From Collinsella tanakaei (lineage in GTDB: Bacteria; Actinomycetota; Coriobacteriia; Coriobacteriales; Coriobacteriaceae), in assembly GCF_030373545.1 (NCBI RefSeq), contig NZ_JAUDCO010000003.1, positions 1 to 64,000 on the forward strand: a stretch of 64,000 nt of DNA, given 5' to 3'. Shown here in pieces: positions 5,584 to 25,236 of this stretch. The notes under the pieces are model-generated. The model made no database searches. It was not told the origin of the DNA and was given only the letters and a program-made list of their open reading frames with translations. How positions within the stretch are numbered: position 1 is the first letter of the stretch; each line of letters starts with the position of its first letter. Both the position numbers and the translations under genes were made by a program.

Positions 5584-6882
5584 TTAACCGACAAACACGC
5601 GCTCGAGCACGCGCTGCGCGGCATGCCCGTCATCCAGCGGACAGAACGTCGCGGCATAGCGATCGAAAGCTTCGCCGTACTGCTGCCAGTACGTATCGTC
5701 CAACCCCTTCACCTGCGCCACGAGCTCTTCGGTGGTGACGCACTGCGGACCAGGGACCTCGGCCATATCAAAATAGAAGCCTCTGATGTCGCCGGCATAC
5801 CGCTCGTAGTCGGGCACGAACAGCAGGATGGGTCGGTGCAGAATGGCGTAGTCGAACATGACACTCGAGTAGTCGGTCACCAGCGCGTCGGCCGCGATGT
5901 ACAGCTCGTTGATGTCCGGCGCGTCCGACACGTCGATCACGAAGCCCTCGTAGGCGCTGAAATCGAACGCATTGGCGATGTAGTAGTGCGGGCGGAACAG
6001 CACCACCCACTCGTCGCCCAGCTCGCGCCGCAGCTCGTCGAAATCGATGAGGTAGTCGAAGGTATACCCCACGCCCGCCTGATACGAGTCATCGCGCCAG
6101 GTAGGGGCATACAGCAGGGCCTTCTTGCCCTCGGGCACGCCGAGCTTCTCGCGCATGGCGCGCACGGTCTCCCCCGTATCATCCGCCGCCGCGCGCGCGA
6201 TGTCGTCGTTGCGCGGGTAGCCGAGCTCCAGCACGGTCTGGGCACGGCGATCCTCGGGCAGGCCGAAGGCGCTCGCCAGGTGCTCGGAGGTATAGGGCGA
6301 GGGCGACAGCAGATAGGTCCACTTTCGCGCGTCCATACCGAAGCGCTCGGCGAGCTCGGAGGTGGTGTTCAGGGCGTTGGCGGTCTCGATCTGCACGTCG
6401 TAGCCCAGCCGCTTGAGCGGCGTGCCGTGCCAGCACTGCACGAAGACCTGGTCGGCCTTGGGTGTGACGTACTCGGGCAGGCGCGTGTTGAGAATCAGCG
6501 TGCCCGAGCTCGCCAGGGCCTCGAAATACTCCGCAGAGCCACGCTGCACCACGGTTGCGCGGGCCAGCGACGGGTTCTCCCGAGCCTCATCGGTGCGCTC
6601 CTGCCCCTTGAACGACCAGACGAACTCGTAGCCGGCAAAACGCTCGTCGTCGCACATGGCCAAAAAGAGGGCGCGCGGCGAGCACGAAAACGACCGGCCG
6701 CCAAACGACTCGAAGAACACGCGCTTGGGGTCGACGGCGATCTTCGCCGCCTGGGCATCGTACTTTTTCGCCTCGTGCTTCCAGTAGGTATGGCGCACCG
6801 CGAGACGCGTCTTGGGCATATAGCGCAACACGCCCAGGCCCGCCGAGCGCACCAGGCGCCGCACGTGTCCGATCGTCTTCAT
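5584..6882 (-). CDS. CDP-glycerol glycerophosphotransferase family protein (TagB/TagF-like)
   Basis: A 432-residue cytoplasmic or membrane-associated transferase that would add glycerol-phosphate units from CDP-glycerol to a growing wall polymer. Family hallmarks: HGTPLK (about 152-157), GYPRND (221-226), LLYAPTWRDD (257-266) and TDYSSVMFDYA (336-346), the donor-binding C-terminal half. The length fits TagB-type (single addition) or short TagF-type enzymes; long polymerases have an extra N-terminal region. It lies 12 bases downstream of tagD and 78 bases upstream of the exporter permease, on the same strand. Whether it primes or polymerises cannot be told from sequence. Confidence 0.9.
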   Translation of the reverse strand: MKTIGHVRRLVRSAGLGVLRYMPKTRLAVRHTYWKHEAKKYDAQAAKIAVDPKRVFFESFGGRSFSCSPRALFLAMCDDERFAGYEFVWSFKGQERTDEARENPSLARATVVQRGSAEYFEALASSGTLILNTRLPEYVTPKADQVFVQCWHGTPLKRLGYDVQIETANALNTTSELAERFGMDARKWTYLLSPSPYTSEHLASAFGLPEDRRAQTVLELGYPRNDDIARAAADDTGETVRAMREKLGVPEGKKALLYAPTWRDDSYQAGVGYTFDYLIDFDELRRELGDEWVVLFRPHYYIANAFDFSAYEGFVIDVSDAPDINELYIAADALVTDYSSVMFDYAILHRPILLFVPDYERYAGDIRGFYFDMAEVPGPQCVTTEELVAQVKGLDDTYWQQYGEAFDRYAATFCPLDDGHAAQRVLERVFVG

Positions 6883-9182: not shown

Positions 9183-10013
9183 GTGGATACGACCTCAACT
9201 CATCGCTTGACGTCCCACGCCAAGACCGAACTGCAAAAGGATGCCTACATCCTGCGGCAACTCGTCGGACGCGACTTCAAGCGCAAATACCGCCGCAGCG
9301 TCTTAGGAATCGTGTGGAGCGTGCTGAACCCCCTGCTCATGATGATCGTCATGGCGGTCGTGTTCTCCACGATCTTCGCCCAGGGGCGCAACGGCTCCAT
9401 CACGCCCGAGCTCTACCCGCTCTACCTCATCGTCGGCAACGTGACCTTCGCCGTCATGTCGGACTCGACCTCGCAGGCGCTCATGTCCATCATCGACAAC
9501 TCGTCCCTGCTCAAGAAGGTCAAGATCCACCGCTACGTGTTCCCCGTGCAGAAGATTCTGTTCTCGCTCGTGAACTTCGCGTTCTCGCTCGTCGCGGTGG
9601 CCATCGTCATGCTGTGGTTCCGCATCGTCCCCACCTGGCATCTCATATGGCTGCCCGTGGGCCTGATCCTGCTCATGCTGTTCTGCATGGGGCTCGGCCT
9701 TCTGCTCTCGGCGCTCACCGTGTTCTTCCGCGACATCATGCATCTGTGGAGCGTCGTGCTCACCGCATGGACCTATTTCACGCCCATCTTCTGGACCGAC
9801 GACTACATCAAGATCATGCCGCATGCGCTGCAGGTGCTGATGTACGGCAACCCCATGTACAGCTACCTGAACTTCATGCGCCAGATTTTCCTGTGGCAGA
9901 CGAGCCCCGAGCCCATGACGGTGGCCATGTGCGCTGGCTGGGCTGTCGTGATGCTCGTCCTGGGCTACGCCGTGTTCCACAGGCTCGAACACCGATTCAT
10001 CCTTTATATCTAA
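9183..10013 (+). CDS. second ABC-2 permease for polysaccharide/teichoic acid export
   Basis: A 276-residue membrane subunit with about six hydrophobic segments and the RDFKRKYRRSVLGIVWSVLN motif at the N-terminus that marks ABC-2 polysaccharide exporters. The GTG at 9183 is chosen because AAGGGGG lies seven bases upstream; the same frame is open to 9132 but without a good site. It is followed after 18 bases by its ATPase gene. It is a distant paralogue of the minus-strand permease at 4700-5506, so the locus encodes two complete exporters. Confidence 0.88.
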   Translation: MDTTSTHRLTSHAKTELQKDAYILRQLVGRDFKRKYRRSVLGIVWSVLNPLLMMIVMAVVFSTIFAQGRNGSITPELYPLYLIVGNVTFAVMSDSTSQALMSIIDNSSLLKKVKIHRYVFPVQKILFSLVNFAFSLVAVAIVMLWFRIVPTWHLIWLPVGLILLMLFCMGLGLLLSALTVFFRDIMHLWSVVLTAWTYFTPIFWTDDYIKIMPHALQVLMYGNPMYSYLNFMRQIFLWQTSPEPMTVAMCAGWAVVMLVLGYAVFHRLEHRFILYI

Positions 10014-13173: not shown

Positions 13174-13569
13174 ATGGAGAAGCTGCTTGCCCAGATCATG
13201 AAGTTTGGCGTGGTGGGCGTCATCGCGTTTTTCATCGACTACGGCGTTATGGTGCTTCTGACCGAGGTGTTCGGCGTGCCGCCGGTCGCCTCCGCCACCG
13301 TCTCGTTCATCGTGTCCGTCGTGTTCAACTATGCTGCGAGCATGCGCTACGTGTTCAGCCACCGCGAGGGCATGAGCCGCAGGCGCGAGTTCGTCATCTT
13401 CATCGTGCTGTCGGTCATCGGTTTGGGCATCAACGATGCGATCATGTGGGCGGGCACCGAGCTTGTCGCCATCGACTACCGCATCGTCAAGATTTTTGCC
13501 ACCGCCGTGGTGATGGTCTGGAACTTCGTAACCCGCAAGGTGTTTCTGGACGGCGGGCAGGACGCCTAG
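13174..13569 (+). CDS. GtrA-family membrane protein (copy 1)
   Basis: A 131-residue protein with four predicted membrane spans (about 8-30, 38-58, 73-92, 103-122) and the GtrA pattern FGVVGVIAFFIDYG ... FNYAASMRYVF. GtrA proteins are thought to flip or pass lipid-linked sugars across the membrane, usually beside a glycosyltransferase. None is adjacent here. A related gene follows 300 bases downstream. A GGAAAGG lies 12 bases before the ATG. Confidence 0.88.
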   Translation: MEKLLAQIMKFGVVGVIAFFIDYGVMVLLTEVFGVPPVASATVSFIVSVVFNYAASMRYVFSHREGMSRRREFVIFIVLSVIGLGINDAIMWAGTELVAIDYRIVKIFATAVVMVWNFVTRKVFLDGGQDA

Positions 13570-13868: not shown

Positions 13869-14276
13869 GTGCGCAGGGCACTCAACAATCCCATGACGAG
13901 GCAGTTCGCCAAGTTCGCCTTGGTGGGCTTTACGTCGCTTGCGGTCGACTATGTCTTGCTGGTCGCCCTCGTCGAGCTTTTCCACATCGACGTCCTCGTG
14001 GGAACGACCATTGCCTTCATCGCCTCGGTCGTCGTGAACTACCTGCTGAGCATGAAGTATGTCTTCGAGCGCCGCGACGACCTGTCGCGCAAGCGCGAGT
14101 TCACCATCTTCGCCGTGCTGTCCGCGATCGGTCTGGGCCTTACCGACCTGTTCATGTTCGTAGGCGTCGCGTTTTTGAGCATCGGCTACCAGGCCATGAA
14201 GCTCATCTCCACGTTCATGGTCACCTGGTACAACTTCTTCAGCCGCAGGCGCTTTCTGGACGGCGGCCACGCGTAG
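13869..14276 (+). CDS. GtrA-family membrane protein (copy 2)
   Basis: A 135-residue paralogue of the previous gene: FALVGFTSLAVDYVLL, VVNYLLSMKYVFERRDDLSRKREF and the FLDGG C-terminus match it closely in order and spacing. Four membrane spans. The GTG start is preceded by GAAGGAGA. The two copies have separate upstream regions and different stops, so they look like an old tandem duplication. Inferred role: movement of lipid-linked glycans for wall or membrane polymers; no direct partner gene is adjacent. Confidence 0.87.
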   Translation: MRRALNNPMTRQFAKFALVGFTSLAVDYVLLVALVELFHIDVLVGTTIAFIASVVVNYLLSMKYVFERRDDLSRKREFTIFAVLSAIGLGLTDLFMFVGVAFLSIGYQAMKLISTFMVTWYNFFSRRRFLDGGHA

Positions 14277-14884: not shown

Positions 14885-14911
14885 GCAGCGCCGCGCGATG
14901 CGCGGCGCTGC
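14885..14911 (-). terminator. terminator of the DUF4430/cobalamin operon
   Basis: A perfect 12-bp GC-rich stem (14885-14896 with 14900-14911) and loop GAT. On the minus strand it lies 50 bases past the stop of the 14963-15853 gene and is followed by CTGTTTCCTTTC, a loose T-rich tract. Confidence 0.65.
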
Positions 14912-14962
14912 AAGATGCGAACCATCTATGGGATTGTTTTTCAGGGCAAAGCCAAGAACAGA

Positions 14963-15853
14963 CTAGCCGGTGATGTAGAACCATTCCACCGAGTCGCCGT
15001 CGGACAGCACGTAGCTGCCGGAGCTCATGCCCGGGGTCACCCCGTTGACAGCGTAATTCCAGCCGCTGGCCTCACCGTATTCCATCTCGGCAAGACCGCC
15101 GATAGCGCTCACGTAGATGCCGAGCGCCGAGTTGCTTGCGTTGACCGAAAGGCCGCAGGCGCACAGTGCATCGTATGCGGTCGCACCCTCATCAAACGTG
15201 AAGGTTCCCCCACCGGAAACCTGACCGCCGACGGCGCTCGAGCTCACCGATACGCTCACGGTAACCGTATGGCGTTGCTCAGCCGGCGGCTCCTGCGGAG
15301 CGGGCGCCGACTGCTCAGGCGCCGTCTGGGTGGCGCCGCTCTGCTCGCTCTCATCGGAGCCGGCAGCGTCGCTATACGATACGGAGCCGCCTGCCCCCTC
15401 AACAGAACCGGACGCCTGTCCATCTGAAGCACCGGCAGAGTCAGCCGTCGTATCGGTCGCGTCATCGGCGGAGGATTCCTCGTCCTTCGCCTCTTCGGGC
15501 TCGTTCTCGTTCTTCTCGTCCTTCACCTCAGGCTTCTGCTGAGCAGAGCCCTGCTCAGCGTCATTCGATGAGGCCTCGGCTGTCGTCTGGAACAACCAGG
15601 ACACCGACCAGCTCCCATGGGGACCAGGATGGATAAAGCCCAGTGACACGACGATGAGCGCAGCGCACAGCACGGCAAGGGCGCCGAGCACGATGGGTCG
15701 GCGCGAAGCCCCTGCACGGGCCCGACCTGATGGGGAACCCTCAGACGCAACCCGCAGGAAGTCATCAGGGTGGCTCTGGGAACCCTGCGCATCCTTTGCC
15801 GCATCGTCCGCAACGCGCACATCATCAGCTTGCTTGATCTTACGATCGTCCAT
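14963..15853 (-). CDS. membrane-anchored DUF4430 (transcobalamin-like) protein
   Basis: A 296-residue protein: charged N-terminus inside the cell, one membrane span (about 53-74), a long acidic Ser/Glu/Asp/Ala spacer (90-190) and one C-terminal DUF4430 domain (about 195-296) with the hallmarks SGWNYAVNG and GDSVEWFYITG. DUF4430 (PF14478) resembles the C-terminal domain of transcobalamin and intrinsic factor, which binds cobalamin. The ATG lies six bases after the upstream gene, with GGAAGGAGGGG just before. It is co-transcribed with the 15860-19090 gene behind a cobalamin riboswitch, so a role in holding B12 (or a corrinoid) at the cell surface is likely. No transporter gene is adjacent. Confidence 0.85.
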   Translation of the reverse strand: MDDRKIKQADDVRVADDAAKDAQGSQSHPDDFLRVASEGSPSGRARAGASRRPIVLGALAVLCAALIVVSLGFIHPGPHGSWSVSWLFQTTAEASSNDAEQGSAQQKPEVKDEKNENEPEEAKDEESSADDATDTTADSAGASDGQASGSVEGAGGSVSYSDAAGSDESEQSGATQTAPEQSAPAPQEPPAEQRHTVTVSVSVSSSAVGGQVSGGGTFTFDEGATAYDALCACGLSVNASNSALGIYVSAIGGLAEMEYGEASGWNYAVNGVTPGMSSGSYVLSDGDSVEWFYITG

Positions 15854-15859
15854 GATGGC

Positions 15860-18800
15860 TTACCCCTCCTTCCCGTACCGGGAGCGTCCAAAGGCAAGGT
15901 ACGCACCGATGGCAATCAAGCCGGCCGCACCGGCGGCAACGCCGGCGTATGCCCAGGTGTTGGTCGCAAGCTCGGCCGCATGCCCAGCGCTGTCCGAGAC
16001 GCCTCCGGCAGCGGTTGCCACCGTGCGGTCACCAACTGCGCCCGCAGCTTCGGCGGACGTCCCCGCCTGGGCCGCGTCGCTTGCCACCTGGCTTTGCGAG
16101 CGCGCCGCGTTCCCGTCCGCAAGCGGAGCGTGCGCGGCCGCGACCGTACCGGCCGCCAGCGGTCGAGCACCCGGGGCCACCGTACCCGCAGACGCACTCG
16201 GGCCCTGGGGCGCTGTGGGCTGCTGCGAGCCCGTGCCGGAGCCGGTCCCTGTCGATCCCGAGCCGCCGCCGGTCTGGCCACCGCCGAGCGCGACCCACTT
16301 GGCATACAGGGTCATATCGCCCGTCACCGGATCATCGAAGTCCCAGGCGACGGTACCGTCAGCGTCGACGTACCAGCCGGCAAATCTATAGCCTGCGCGC
16401 ACAGGATCGGCGGGCTTCACGAGCTTTCCGCCTTGGACGGGACGGGCGCCGGACACCTCGCTTCCGCCCTGGCTATCGAAACGAACCGTATAGCCTGCAG
16501 CGGCGCTCAGGCAGAACAGATGCCCGGAGTCGTTCGTGTAGTACAGGTTTCCGTCAGCGTCCGCGATCACGCTGGCCGTGCAGTAGTTCTGCTGGTCTTC
16601 GCCTGGCGTGTAGATGAGCTCCACCGCGCCGGTGCTCGCCGCGTATCGGTAGACGCCGCCCGGCTTGCTGTTGCTCGTAAAGTACACGTAGGTGTCGTCG
16701 CCCTGCACCGATACGAGCGGCGAGGACTTGACCTCGCCGGAGCTCTCGGTGCGATAGCTGCCCGCAACCTCCATGGTCGCCAGGTCGATCGCGACGAGCA
16801 CGCCGTGGTACTCGGCGTCGATACCGCCCACATACGCCACGCCATCCGCCACCGCCGGCGTGGAGGTCGAGGACGAGGCGAACGCCACGCTGCCCGCAAC
16901 GCGCAGGGTGTCCCCTTCGCGCACAATCTTGAACAGGGTCGCAGGCCCGCGGCCCACGGCGAGATACACCGGGTTGCCGTCTTCGGTACCGGCGGAGACG
17001 ATCGTCGAGCGGCAGGCCATGCCGATGTACGCGCTCGAGACGACCTCACCCGTGGCGGCATCGATCAGCTGCACGCGGCCGGCCTCGTCGCCGATGATGA
17101 TCTCGTCGCCCGAGGCGCACGCGCCTGCCCAGTAGTAGCCGGCACCGGCGTCGCCCTCGCCCGCAACGGTGATGTTTTGCCACATGACGCGACCGTCGGA
17201 TATGCGCACGCAGACGAGGGCGCCCGCACGCGCGTTGCCCGTGGCGCCCGCGCCGGACTCAAAGCCCGCGATGACGCAGCCGTTCGTGACGGTAAGCGTC
17301 GAGTTGGCCTGGTAGCGACCACCGTTCGCAGGGGCCTCGAGCACCGGTGTGCGCCAGACACGGGTGAGGGTATCCGCCGTGAACGCGGAAAGCGATCCGT
17401 CGTCCGAGGGAACGATGATCAGGCCGTCCGCGTACACCGGGCGCGAGAAATACGACGTCCTGCCGCCGGTCGTCACGCGCTTCTCGATGGCGCCTGTCTG
17501 GGCGTTGACCTTGATGAGCTCGGTCGACGATGTCACGAAGATGCTGCCGCCCGCGATGATGGGATCGCCGGCGGAGATGTACTGCGTGCCCTCGGGGCGA
17601 AGGTCGATCGCCCACTTCTCGTTCGCCGCCTCGCTGGGCGTCGGGACGTTTACGAGCGTCGTGCCGCCCGCGTTGCCGAATCCGACCCAGGACGCATCGT
17701 AGTCGGGGCGCTCGGCATCCGGGTCGATGGGCAGTTCGTCGGGGTCGGGCTGCTCGTCACCGTAGGCGGCGTACCCCCATACGATGCTGTCGCCCTCCTC
17801 GAGCACCACGCTGCCGGCACCGAGCTCGGAGCTCACGCCGTTCACATACAGCTGCCAATAGGCACCGGTATCGGCGTCGTAGCCAAGCGACTCCCCGGTA
17901 AACGGCGAGGTGATGGCATTGAGGAACCATCCCCACTCGCCCACGCCGCAATCCGCCGCAAGACCGGCATGCTCGAGGGCGAGCTCGGTCAGGTCCGCCG
18001 CGGTGGCGCCTTGCTCGAGCGTCAGCTCGGAGGCGTCGGCCCACCAGACGGCGTTGCCGTTCGCATCGGGACCGGCGATGGCGATCGTCGCCGTGACCTC
18101 GTCGGCCGGCTCCTCGGGCGCCTCCTCGGGAAGCTCGTCGCCGAAGGCGGAGTAGTACAGCGCGATGCGGTCGCCCTTGGCAAGCTCGATCTGGCCTGCG
18201 CCAAGCTCAGCGGCCTTGCCGTTCACGAACAGCTGCCAGTACCTGCCCGTCGCCTCGTCCCAACCGATCTGGGTTCCCGGGTCATACGGAGCCGCGATCG
18301 AGGACAGATACCAGCTCTCCCCCTCGCCCGAAACGACAGCGAAAAGGCCGGCGTCGGCAAGCTGGCGCTCAAGCAGGTCGGCGGCCGTGGAGCCCTCGTC
18401 CATCTCGTAGGACGTCGACGCGGCCCACACCTGCTCCTCGCCTGCGGCATCGATGCCGATGATGGTCGAGGAGACGTTGACGGTGGCCGCGCGTTCATCG
18501 GCGTCGCTTCCGTCCTTGGGGGTCTCGGGGTCATCGCTTGCCTGCAGGCCGTTGGATATGTTGCCGGCACCGTTCGGCTGCGTGTCGGCGGATGTCTGGG
18601 AGCCATCGGGCTCGCCGGGCAGCGTGTCGCCGTCGCCCGGCATCTCACCTGTACCGCTTGAGGGCTGGTCGGCGCCGGAATCGGTCACGCCGCCCGAGGA
18701 CAGGTCGCCCGTGCCAGACTGCACCGAATCGCCCGCTGTGGATCCGGCGCCCGAATCGCCCGCGGACGAGGTCGAGCCCGAATCCGAACCCGCACCCGTA

Positions 18801-19090
18801 TCCGCCGCGGAGCCCGACTCGCCATCCGAGGCGCCCGCACCCGCTCCGTCGGCACCATCGCCAAGCGAGCCGCCCGTTCCATCGGCTGCGCCCTGCCCGG
18901 TCGCAGCGTCCTCGAGAACCGCAGCGGAACCGGCATCCTGGGCCCATGCCGCAGCGGGAAGCTGGCCTGTCGCAAGCGATGCGGCAAGCAGCGCAACGAG
19001 CATCTTGTGTGTCATGGTCTTGGCGCATCGCACCAGCGCAATCGGTCGCCTTGCGTCCATCTGACGAAGCGCGTCCTTGCGTACCCTCAT
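15860..19090 (-). CDS. surface protein: two DUF4430 domains, beta-propeller (PQQ-like) region, InlB-type repeat, C-terminal membrane anchor
   Basis: A 1076-residue exported protein. Signal peptide about 25-50 (after a long basic N-region), Gly/Ser/Asp-rich low-complexity stalk 55-200, DUF4430 domains at about 200-315 and 330-443 (each with YWQL(F/Y)VNG and a GD(R/S)I segment), a WD/PQQ-type beta-propeller region about 465-865 (recurrent motifs such as AGDPIIAGGSIFV, TSTPAVADGVAYVGG and DADGNLYYTND), one Listeria-Bacteroides (InlB B) repeat 867-933 ending in LYAKW, an Ala/Gly/Pro-rich spacer and a terminal membrane span (about 1046-1066) with a basic tail. No LPxTG motif is seen. It is the first gene of an operon with the preceding feature, behind a cobalamin riboswitch; AGAAAGGA precedes the ATG. 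Inferred role: capture of cobalamin or another corrinoid. Confidence 0.85.
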   Translation of the reverse strand: MRVRKDALRQMDARRPIALVRCAKTMTHKMLVALLAASLATGQLPAAAWAQDAGSAAVLEDAATGQGAADGTGGSLGDGADGAGAGASDGESGSAADTGAGSDSGSTSSAGDSGAGSTAGDSVQSGTGDLSSGGVTDSGADQPSSGTGEMPGDGDTLPGEPDGSQTSADTQPNGAGNISNGLQASDDPETPKDGSDADERAATVNVSSTIIGIDAAGEEQVWAASTSYEMDEGSTAADLLERQLADAGLFAVVSGEGESWYLSSIAAPYDPGTQIGWDEATGRYWQLFVNGKAAELGAGQIELAKGDRIALYYSAFGDELPEEAPEEPADEVTATIAIAGPDANGNAVWWADASELTLEQGATAADLTELALEHAGLAADCGVGEWGWFLNAITSPFTGESLGYDADTGAYWQLYVNGVSSELGAGSVVLEEGDSIVWGYAAYGDEQPDPDELPIDPDAERPDYDASWVGFGNAGGTTLVNVPTPSEAANEKWAIDLRPEGTQYISAGDPIIAGGSIFVTSSTELIKVNAQTGAIEKRVTTGGRTSYFSRPVYADGLIIVPSDDGSLSAFTADTLTRVWRTPVLEAPANGGRYQANSTLTVTNGCVIAGFESGAGATGNARAGALVCVRISDGRVMWQNITVAGEGDAGAGYYWAGACASGDEIIIGDEAGRVQLIDAATGEVVSSAYIGMACRSTIVSAGTEDGNPVYLAVGRGPATLFKIVREGDTLRVAGSVAFASSSTSTPAVADGVAYVGGIDAEYHGVLVAIDLATMEVAGSYRTESSGEVKSSPLVSVQGDDTYVYFTSNSKPGGVYRYAASTGAVELIYTPGEDQQNYCTASVIADADGNLYYTNDSGHLFCLSAAAGYTVRFDSQGGSEVSGARPVQGGKLVKPADPVRAGYRFAGWYVDADGTVAWDFDDPVTGDMTLYAKWVALGGGQTGGGSGSTGTGSGTGSQQPTAPQGPSASAGTVAPGARPLAAGTVAAAHAPLADGNAARSQSQVASDAAQAGTSAEAAGAVGDRTVATAAGGVSDSAGHAAELATNTWAYAGVAAGAAGLIAIGAYLAFGRSRYGKEG

Positions 19091-19168
19091 ATCGGGTCCT
19101 TTCTATCCAGGGCCGCCGCCGAGGCACGCATCCGGGAGAACCGAATGCCCCTGTGCGCTCGACAAGTA

Positions 19169-19337
19169 GATGGGAAGAGATCCGACTTGACGTCAACCGA
19201 CCACGCACGCCGCCCGATCTGCAGCGCGTTGCTCGCGGCCGTCCGAATTACGGTTACTGGTACAGCCGGGGACTTTCACCCCGATTCCCTTAGCGCGCCG
19301 CTCCATGGGCGCGCTCGTGCGTCTCCGCACCACCATC
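19169..19337 (-). promoter_or_regulatory. cobalamin (adenosylcobalamin) riboswitch
   Basis: Read on the minus strand, the leader of the DUF4430 operon carries the B12-box core: GGGAATC, GGTGAAAGTCC, GCTG and CCAGTAACCGTAA (19247-19290), a later AAGTCGGAT (19180-19188), and outer strands GATGG and CCATC that can close P1. Spacing and order match the Cobalamin family. Between it and the ATG (19090) lies a small hairpin at 19128-19148 (GCATCCGG / CCGAATGC), which may be part of the expression platform. Control could be translational, as no U-run follows. Such switches normally turn genes off when cobalamin is plentiful. Confidence 0.9.
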
Positions 19338-19550
19338 TTGGCCATATTGGTTCGCCCATCGTAGCACAACGGTTCGGGTACGCTGCGCTCCGGAAGGCCA
19401 GGTGGGCGCCGAGGACTCGCAAACGACGGAAGCGCAAGGCCGTTCGGCGGCGTCGGATTCCGCCAACGGTCCCGAAACTCCAAAGATTCTCGACAACTAT
19501 CCTTCGTGCCAGCTCACGACCAGCTCAAAGCCGAGCCGGTAAAATCCTAA

Positions 19551-25058: not shown

Positions 25059-25068
25059 TCCTCCATTC

Positions 25069-25225
25069 GATAGAGGCGCGGGCACGATGGCGCGCGGGCG
25101 AGCCGGCAGGCGACGACCCCGCGCAAGGGCAAACCCGCCGAACTCGGCAGCCGGGCGCGGCGCGTCGGGTGGGCCTGCGGGAAACACCCTCAGGACTGTC
25201 TGCAACGATCTGCAGGAGCGCTATC
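25069..25225 (+). promoter_or_regulatory. lysine riboswitch (L-box)
   Basis: The family's conserved blocks are in order: GATAGAGGCGCG at the 5' end, GCCGAA in the middle, CAGGACTGTC, and the closing GAGCGCTATC (25216-25225), which pairs with the start to form P1. The ribosome binding site AGGAGG (25227-25232) of lysA begins one base after P1, so closing P1 with lysine could hide it; no Rho-independent terminator is seen. Lysine should therefore lower translation of lysA and the genes behind it. Confidence 0.93.
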
Positions 25226-25236
25226 CAGGAGGCATG

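Follow-up and report, generated by a model that had tools for sequence, protein, structure and literature searches.

Surface proteins of Gram-positive bacteria that scavenge vitamin B12 (cobalamin) were predicted in 2007 by Burroughs et al., who defined a transcobalamin-like clade of SLBB domains and proposed its transfer to animals (PMC1796856). Among the architectures they reported were fusions to propellers and toroids, paralogous pairs sharing an operon, and operons with CbiO/CbiQ-like (ECF-type) genes in bacteria that lack B12 synthesis. Their account dealt mainly with low-GC Gram-positives and archaea, left riboswitches unmentioned and drew no link to CbrT (PMC1796856). ECF-CbrT is the cobalamin transporter of Lactobacillus delbrueckii (PMC5997447). 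In Bacteroides, BtuG (a beta-propeller) and BtuH bind B12 at the surface, stand under cobamide riboswitches and serve the outer-membrane BtuB (PMC6143338, PMC8941943). A 2019 survey of gut genomes lists C. aerofaciens as needing B12 and treats the B12 uptake route of many gut bacteria as an open problem (PMC6593275).

Here we describe a pair of surface protein genes in a stretch of 64,000 nucleotides of Collinsella tanakaei DNA (the window). The pair is a member of the class predicted by Burroughs et al. It shares with their systems the domain clade, the surface location, the paralogous pairing, the propeller or toroid fusions, the ECF-type operons and hosts without B12 synthesis. It differs in belonging to the Coriobacteriia, in direct riboswitch control, in a CbrT-type S component, and in a Collinsella unit made of surface proteins alone. 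In a search that covered few subscription journals and preprints, the literature yielded no earlier account of the riboswitch link, of a CbrT-type S component, of the breadth across Coriobacteriia or of a regulated variant with surface proteins only. Literature tying DUF4430 by name to bacterial B12 uptake was likewise not found.

The mammalian carriers transcobalamin, haptocorrin and intrinsic factor share the beta-domain fold that is predicted for the pair, including the beta-hairpin after the helix. However, they are soluble and combine one alpha-toroid with one beta domain, whereas the Collinsella proteins hold two plus one beta-type domains, are membrane-anchored and carry a propeller instead of a toroid. 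The likeness to BtuG and BtuH lies in surface B12 binding (here predicted) under riboswitch control; a relationship of those proteins to DUF4430 has not been reported (PMC6143338, PMC8941943). With ECF-CbrT the system shares a homologous S component with T and AA' subunits, but the L. delbrueckii transporter, encoded in the locus nrdJ-cbrS-cbrT-pduO, proved functional with no extracellular binding protein (PMC5997447).

A riboswitch-led pair of surface protein genes

The minus strand from 14885 to 19340 is one compact unit: a riboswitch, a long gene, a short gene 6 nt behind it, and a strong terminator-like hairpin at which the unit probably ends (Table 1). An Rfam covariance-model search scored the aptamer at 41.4 bits with RF01689, against a gathering score of 36.5 (E 1.8e-6, computed for 64 kb and 4227 families). 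RF00174 matches the same place (19335-19191) at 19.4 bits, under its cut-off. With these two models, just one cobalamin riboswitch was found in the genome. It probably acts on translation, because no intrinsic terminator was found between the aptamer and the start codon.

The riboswitch is widespread in the genus. AdoCbl-II matches occur in 42 of 45 Collinsella genomes, one in each and most below the curated score, and in G024 the core motif was detected by pattern. A chance core is ruled out by the E value and by this presence in 43 of the 45 genomes. Compared by eye, 41 of the 42 genomes with a match carry DUF4430 downstream of it, on the contig and strand of the riboswitch; in the remaining one (G033) the contigs are split. 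In G041 the riboswitch, DUF4430 and the S component were all searched for and not found.

The long protein runs from a signal peptide through an acidic low-complexity spacer, two DUF4430 domains, a beta-propeller and a Listeria-Bacteroides repeat to a C-terminal membrane helix. The short protein has an N-terminal membrane anchor (residues about 54-72), an acidic spacer and a C-terminal DUF4430 domain. The three DUF4430 domains score 41.1, 41.7 and 46.5 bits with PF14478 (curated cut-off 23.8), and those of the long and the short protein are subtypes with clearly different sequences. Asp and Glu make up 18% of the long protein and 25% of the short one; Lys and Arg account for 1% and 5%. Over its domain region, the long protein is 95% identical to the nearest named relative, 'uncultured Collinsella sp.'. 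A preliminary description had proposed the riboswitch core in the minus-strand leader, the three DUF4430 domains over two genes, and membrane anchoring of both proteins with acidic, here low-complexity, spacers. All of this is confirmed; the propeller and the Listeria-Bacteroides repeat are additional to it.

Many Collinsella have GtrA-like genes close to the riboswitch unit (cluster c1), and two adjacent ones lie in the window. The long proteins at L083, L128 and L122 extend to as many as 2452 residues, with many Ig-like repeats ahead of the DUF4430 domains, and stalk length varies strongly from species to species.

Table 1. Coordinates of features in the window and of toroid-like proteins at related loci
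Feature	Position	Strand	Remarks
AdoCbl-II cobalamin riboswitch aptamer (RF01689)	19231..19298	-	Rfam covariance model; wider leader about 19191-19335
Long surface protein gene	15860..19090	-	1076 aa
DUF4430 domain 1, long protein	18149..18394	-	Pfam, 41.7 bits
DUF4430 domain 2, long protein	17768..18007	-	Pfam; segment 17747-18106 used for structure model
PQQ/BamB-type beta-propeller, long protein	16514..17728	-	residues 455-859
Listeria-Bacteroides (InlB-type) repeat, long protein	16298..16492	-	residues 867-931
Short surface protein gene	14963..15853	-	296 aa
DUF4430 domain, short protein	14975-15187	-	Pfam; C-terminal
Terminator-like hairpin	14885..14911	-	12 pairs, 11 G-C; 3' of short gene
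Two adjacent small membrane proteins	13174-13569 and 13869-14276	+	apparent GtrA family paralogues
Lysine riboswitch (RF00168)	25063-25231	+	55.7 bits; immediately 5' of diaminopimelate-decarboxylase-like gene
Toroid-like protein, L142	7339-9627	-	
Toroid-like protein, L145	7508-9868	-	
Toroid-like protein, L146	3973-6072	+	
Toroid-like protein, L152	6065-7426	-	

Fold of the DUF4430 domains

Domain 2 of the long protein was modelled with AlphaFold2 from an alignment of five sequences, three from the window and two from L065 (mean pLDDT 89.8). The model shows a helix (36-47) and strands 51-56 and 59-66, a beta-grasp fold with a beta-hairpin inserted after the helix. The first 19 Foldseek places went to transcobalamin, haptocorrin, intrinsic factor and the R. 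gnavus DUF4430 structure 3u7z. VIA-align gave Z 15.0 for haptocorrin (1.9 A over 102 residues), 13.9 for intrinsic factor, about 12.9 for transcobalamin and 11.8 for 3u7z, whereas ubiquitin-like proteins reached only 8.1. This confident model is much closer to the beta domains with which haptocorrin, intrinsic factor and transcobalamin bind cobalamin than to other folds. In sequence searches of the PDB, a profile of 21 Coriobacteriia DUF4430 domains put 3u7z and transcobalamins on top with marginal E values (0.002-0.17), and a single DUF4430 sequence retrieved only 3u7z (E 0.012).

Such a likeness to cobalamin carriers, seen in a predicted structure, is compatible with binding and does not prove it. 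DUF4430 is also present in proteins without a known B12 role. In crystals, cobalamin is bound by the isolated human beta domain (PMC5599065), and the mammalian beta domain is thought to bind cobalamin first, with the alpha domain closing afterwards (PMC11107200). Because transcobalamin contacts the corrinoid mainly by way of backbone atoms (PMC1796856), an intact pocket cannot be recognised from sequence. Judged from the fold together with the gene neighbourhoods of relatives described below, the surface proteins most likely catch B12 when it is scarce.

Transporter linkage and B12 requirement

Five Collinsella genomes (G016, G022, G032, G042, G043) have an alternative riboswitch unit that includes an ECF transporter. 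It begins with the riboswitch and a small DUF4430 protein that has a lipobox-like signal, followed by ECF T and then by AA' fused or joined to S. The only convincing PDB sequence match of this S component is 6fnp_A (E 1.5e-6). 6fnp is the structure of ECF-CbrT, and 6fnp_A is the S component of this L. delbrueckii cobalamin transporter. The order DUF4430-T-AA'-S recurs at five loci of other Coriobacteriaceae (L114-L117, L119), and G050 contains both kinds of unit (L117, L118). At L069 (G019), a third and minimal form consists of the riboswitch and, behind it, one DUF4430 protein of 219 aa that ends in a C-terminal membrane helix. Immediately behind the DUF4430 pair of L127 lie an FMN riboswitch (9397-9590, plus strand) and a gene for an ABC ATPase; these probably belong to a riboflavin ECF system that is unrelated.

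The linkage extends beyond the family. Twenty DUF4430 loci were sampled from other families and orders of Coriobacteriia, and at 19 of them DUF4430, T, AA' and S are consecutive (the T match begins 139-326 nt from the DUF4430 centre). At L141, the one exception, a riboswitch motif accompanies a solitary DUF4430 lipoprotein gene (5860-6504, plus strand); no transporter is present, and a folylpolyglutamate-synthase-like gene follows. Cobalamin riboswitches precede most DUF4430-T-AA'-S loci. Across the 20, Rfam matches above threshold were obtained at seven (L134, L145, L146, L149, L151, L152, L153), the core motif was seen at six (L140, L141, L143, L144, L147, L148), L142 has a match below threshold, and none was found at L135-L139 and L150. 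Some operons are complete, among them locus L149 (G070), where the riboswitch is followed in order by a long protein bearing two DUF4430 domains and a propeller, a short DUF4430 protein, T, AA' and S. Identity to the proteins of the window is 38% over 690 aa for the long one of L149 and 42% over 103 for the short one. Spurious reading frames were ruled out by the long-protein orthologue, which comes from another family.

The preliminary description had called for a search for the pair near B12 transporters in related genomes, and L149 supplies the case, with both orthologues and a CbrT-type ECF transporter behind a cobalamin riboswitch. It had also stated that no transporter adjoins the pair. 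This is correct within the window and does not carry over to the genome, where ECF T, AA' and S lie in a row on another contig (S at C1:143307-143975). Compared with two operon-linked sets, these three show 39-53% identity, and the S component beside the T and AA' genes is a CbrT homologue, matching 6fnp_A at E 5e-5. The transporter is on a separate contig, and no cobalamin riboswitch is recognisable at its genes. Therefore, in the lineage of the window, the riboswitch appears to govern the surface proteins and not visibly the transporter. Across 59 good genomes of the family, DUF4430 and the S component co-occur (Fisher p 0.01, uncorrected for relatedness and suggestive only); G061 has DUF4430 with no S component detected, and G048 the reverse.

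The genome encodes MetH, the sole protein found with the classical B12-binding domain (PF02310), and no MetE was detected in it. The corrin pathway requires several enzymes of the tetrapyrrole-methylase family (PF00590). The genome has one match only to this family, and no corrin-ring methyltransferases were detectable. With MetH present, MetE not detected and a single PF00590 match, imported corrinoid appears necessary for methionine synthesis. On its gene content, the Collinsella genome seems unable to synthesise vitamin B12 and should depend on imported corrinoid.

That corrinoid need not be complete cobalamin. The proteins could capture cobinamide or other cobamides from gut neighbours for salvage, a reading we consider possible without favouring it. 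CbrT accepts cobinamide besides cobalamin (PMC5997447), the transcobalamin beta domain binds cobinamide too (PMC5599065), and the DUF4430 subtypes of the long and short proteins are distinct in sequence. However, salvaging incomplete corrinoids requires late-pathway enzymes, and MetH requires a complete cobamide. The S component paired with DUF4430 might also carry a different substrate, for example cobalt, which the DUF4430 proteins would serve as well. Its likeness to CbrT comes with modest scores (the two E values above), cobalt transporters too are found under cobalamin riboswitches (PMC3766115), and 3u7z is annotated 'putative metal binding'. Yet cobalt would be of little use to a cell without detectable corrin synthesis genes, CbrT is the only convincing PDB match of the S component, and the DUF4430 fold is nearest to cobalamin carriers. 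We regard transport of another substrate as highly improbable and retain cobalamin as the likely cargo.

Domain partners and proposed function

At L142, L145 and L146, two DUF4430-like domains and an alpha/alpha-toroid-like domain occupy the place that the long protein has elsewhere. At L152, the DUF4430 protein comes after a toroid-like protein whose end resembles a wall anchor. The toroid reading of L142, L146 and L152 comes from alignment with L145 and weak Pfam scores. These toroids lie in or beside DUF4430 proteins that accompany a CbrT-type ECF transporter, so that both kinds of transcobalamin domain stand in one bacterial locus. A toroid profile retrieved squalene cyclases from the PDB and not transcobalamin alpha domains, and PF01122 gave no match in the toroid-like proteins, so that sequence does not tie them by descent to the animal alpha domain.

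In the window, Pfam finds no alpha/alpha toroid in either protein, and the propeller is present. A sequence profile of the propeller matched mainly BamB and quinoproteins in the PDB, with 3DSM (BtuG) not listed. A structure model covering 770 residues of the long protein, built from 2 sequences, had a pLDDT of 36.4 and was set aside. Propeller and toroid interchange in the same operon slot, which suggests that the propeller perhaps helps to hold the ligand. By analogy, it could be the second half of a corrinoid-binding sandwich, in place of the alpha/alpha toroid of transcobalamin, a tentative idea that is rather unlikely to be right. If it were true, the protein would be a clamp taking B12 from other gut carriers, conceivably host intrinsic factor, and B12 would be passed along the row of beta domains to the membrane.

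The same architecture could belong to B12-regulated adhesins or wall-attachment proteins, in which DUF4430 is a structural module and B12 a signal only. The Listeria-Bacteroides repeat, the many Ig-like repeats of relatives and the generic BamB/PQQ type of the propeller all fit such a role. It is nevertheless improbable, given that elsewhere the riboswitch unit consists of a small DUF4430 lipoprotein and an ECF transporter only, without adhesin parts, and that the propeller is sometimes replaced by a toroid, the partner of the beta domain in transcobalamin.

We consider it likely that the pair is a cobalamin-repressed surface capture system that hands its ligand to a CbrT-type ECF transporter and supplies MetH. 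When adenosylcobalamin is scarce, a riboswitch of this class would permit production of both proteins. The long protein would be exported and held by its C-terminal helix, and the short one held by its N-terminal helix. The observed anatomy would place the DUF4430 domains, which are of transcobalamin beta type, outside the membrane on long acidic stalks. There, as fold, family and operon context suggest, they would bind cobalamin or other corrinoids. The genes for a CbrT-type ECF transporter are present, and it would receive the corrinoid, which MetH would then use. The surface corrinoid capture first proposed for this locus thus appears largely right: the riboswitch and DUF4430 searches, the fold model and the ECF operons of relatives support it, with binding itself predicted.

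This gives the Coriobacteriia, a common group in the gut, a specific and testable candidate B12 uptake system. The 2007 prediction that the B12 carriers of animals derived from Gram-positive surface proteins also gains a link to regulation and transport, including loci where both kinds of transcobalamin domain lie beside a cobalamin-type ECF transporter.
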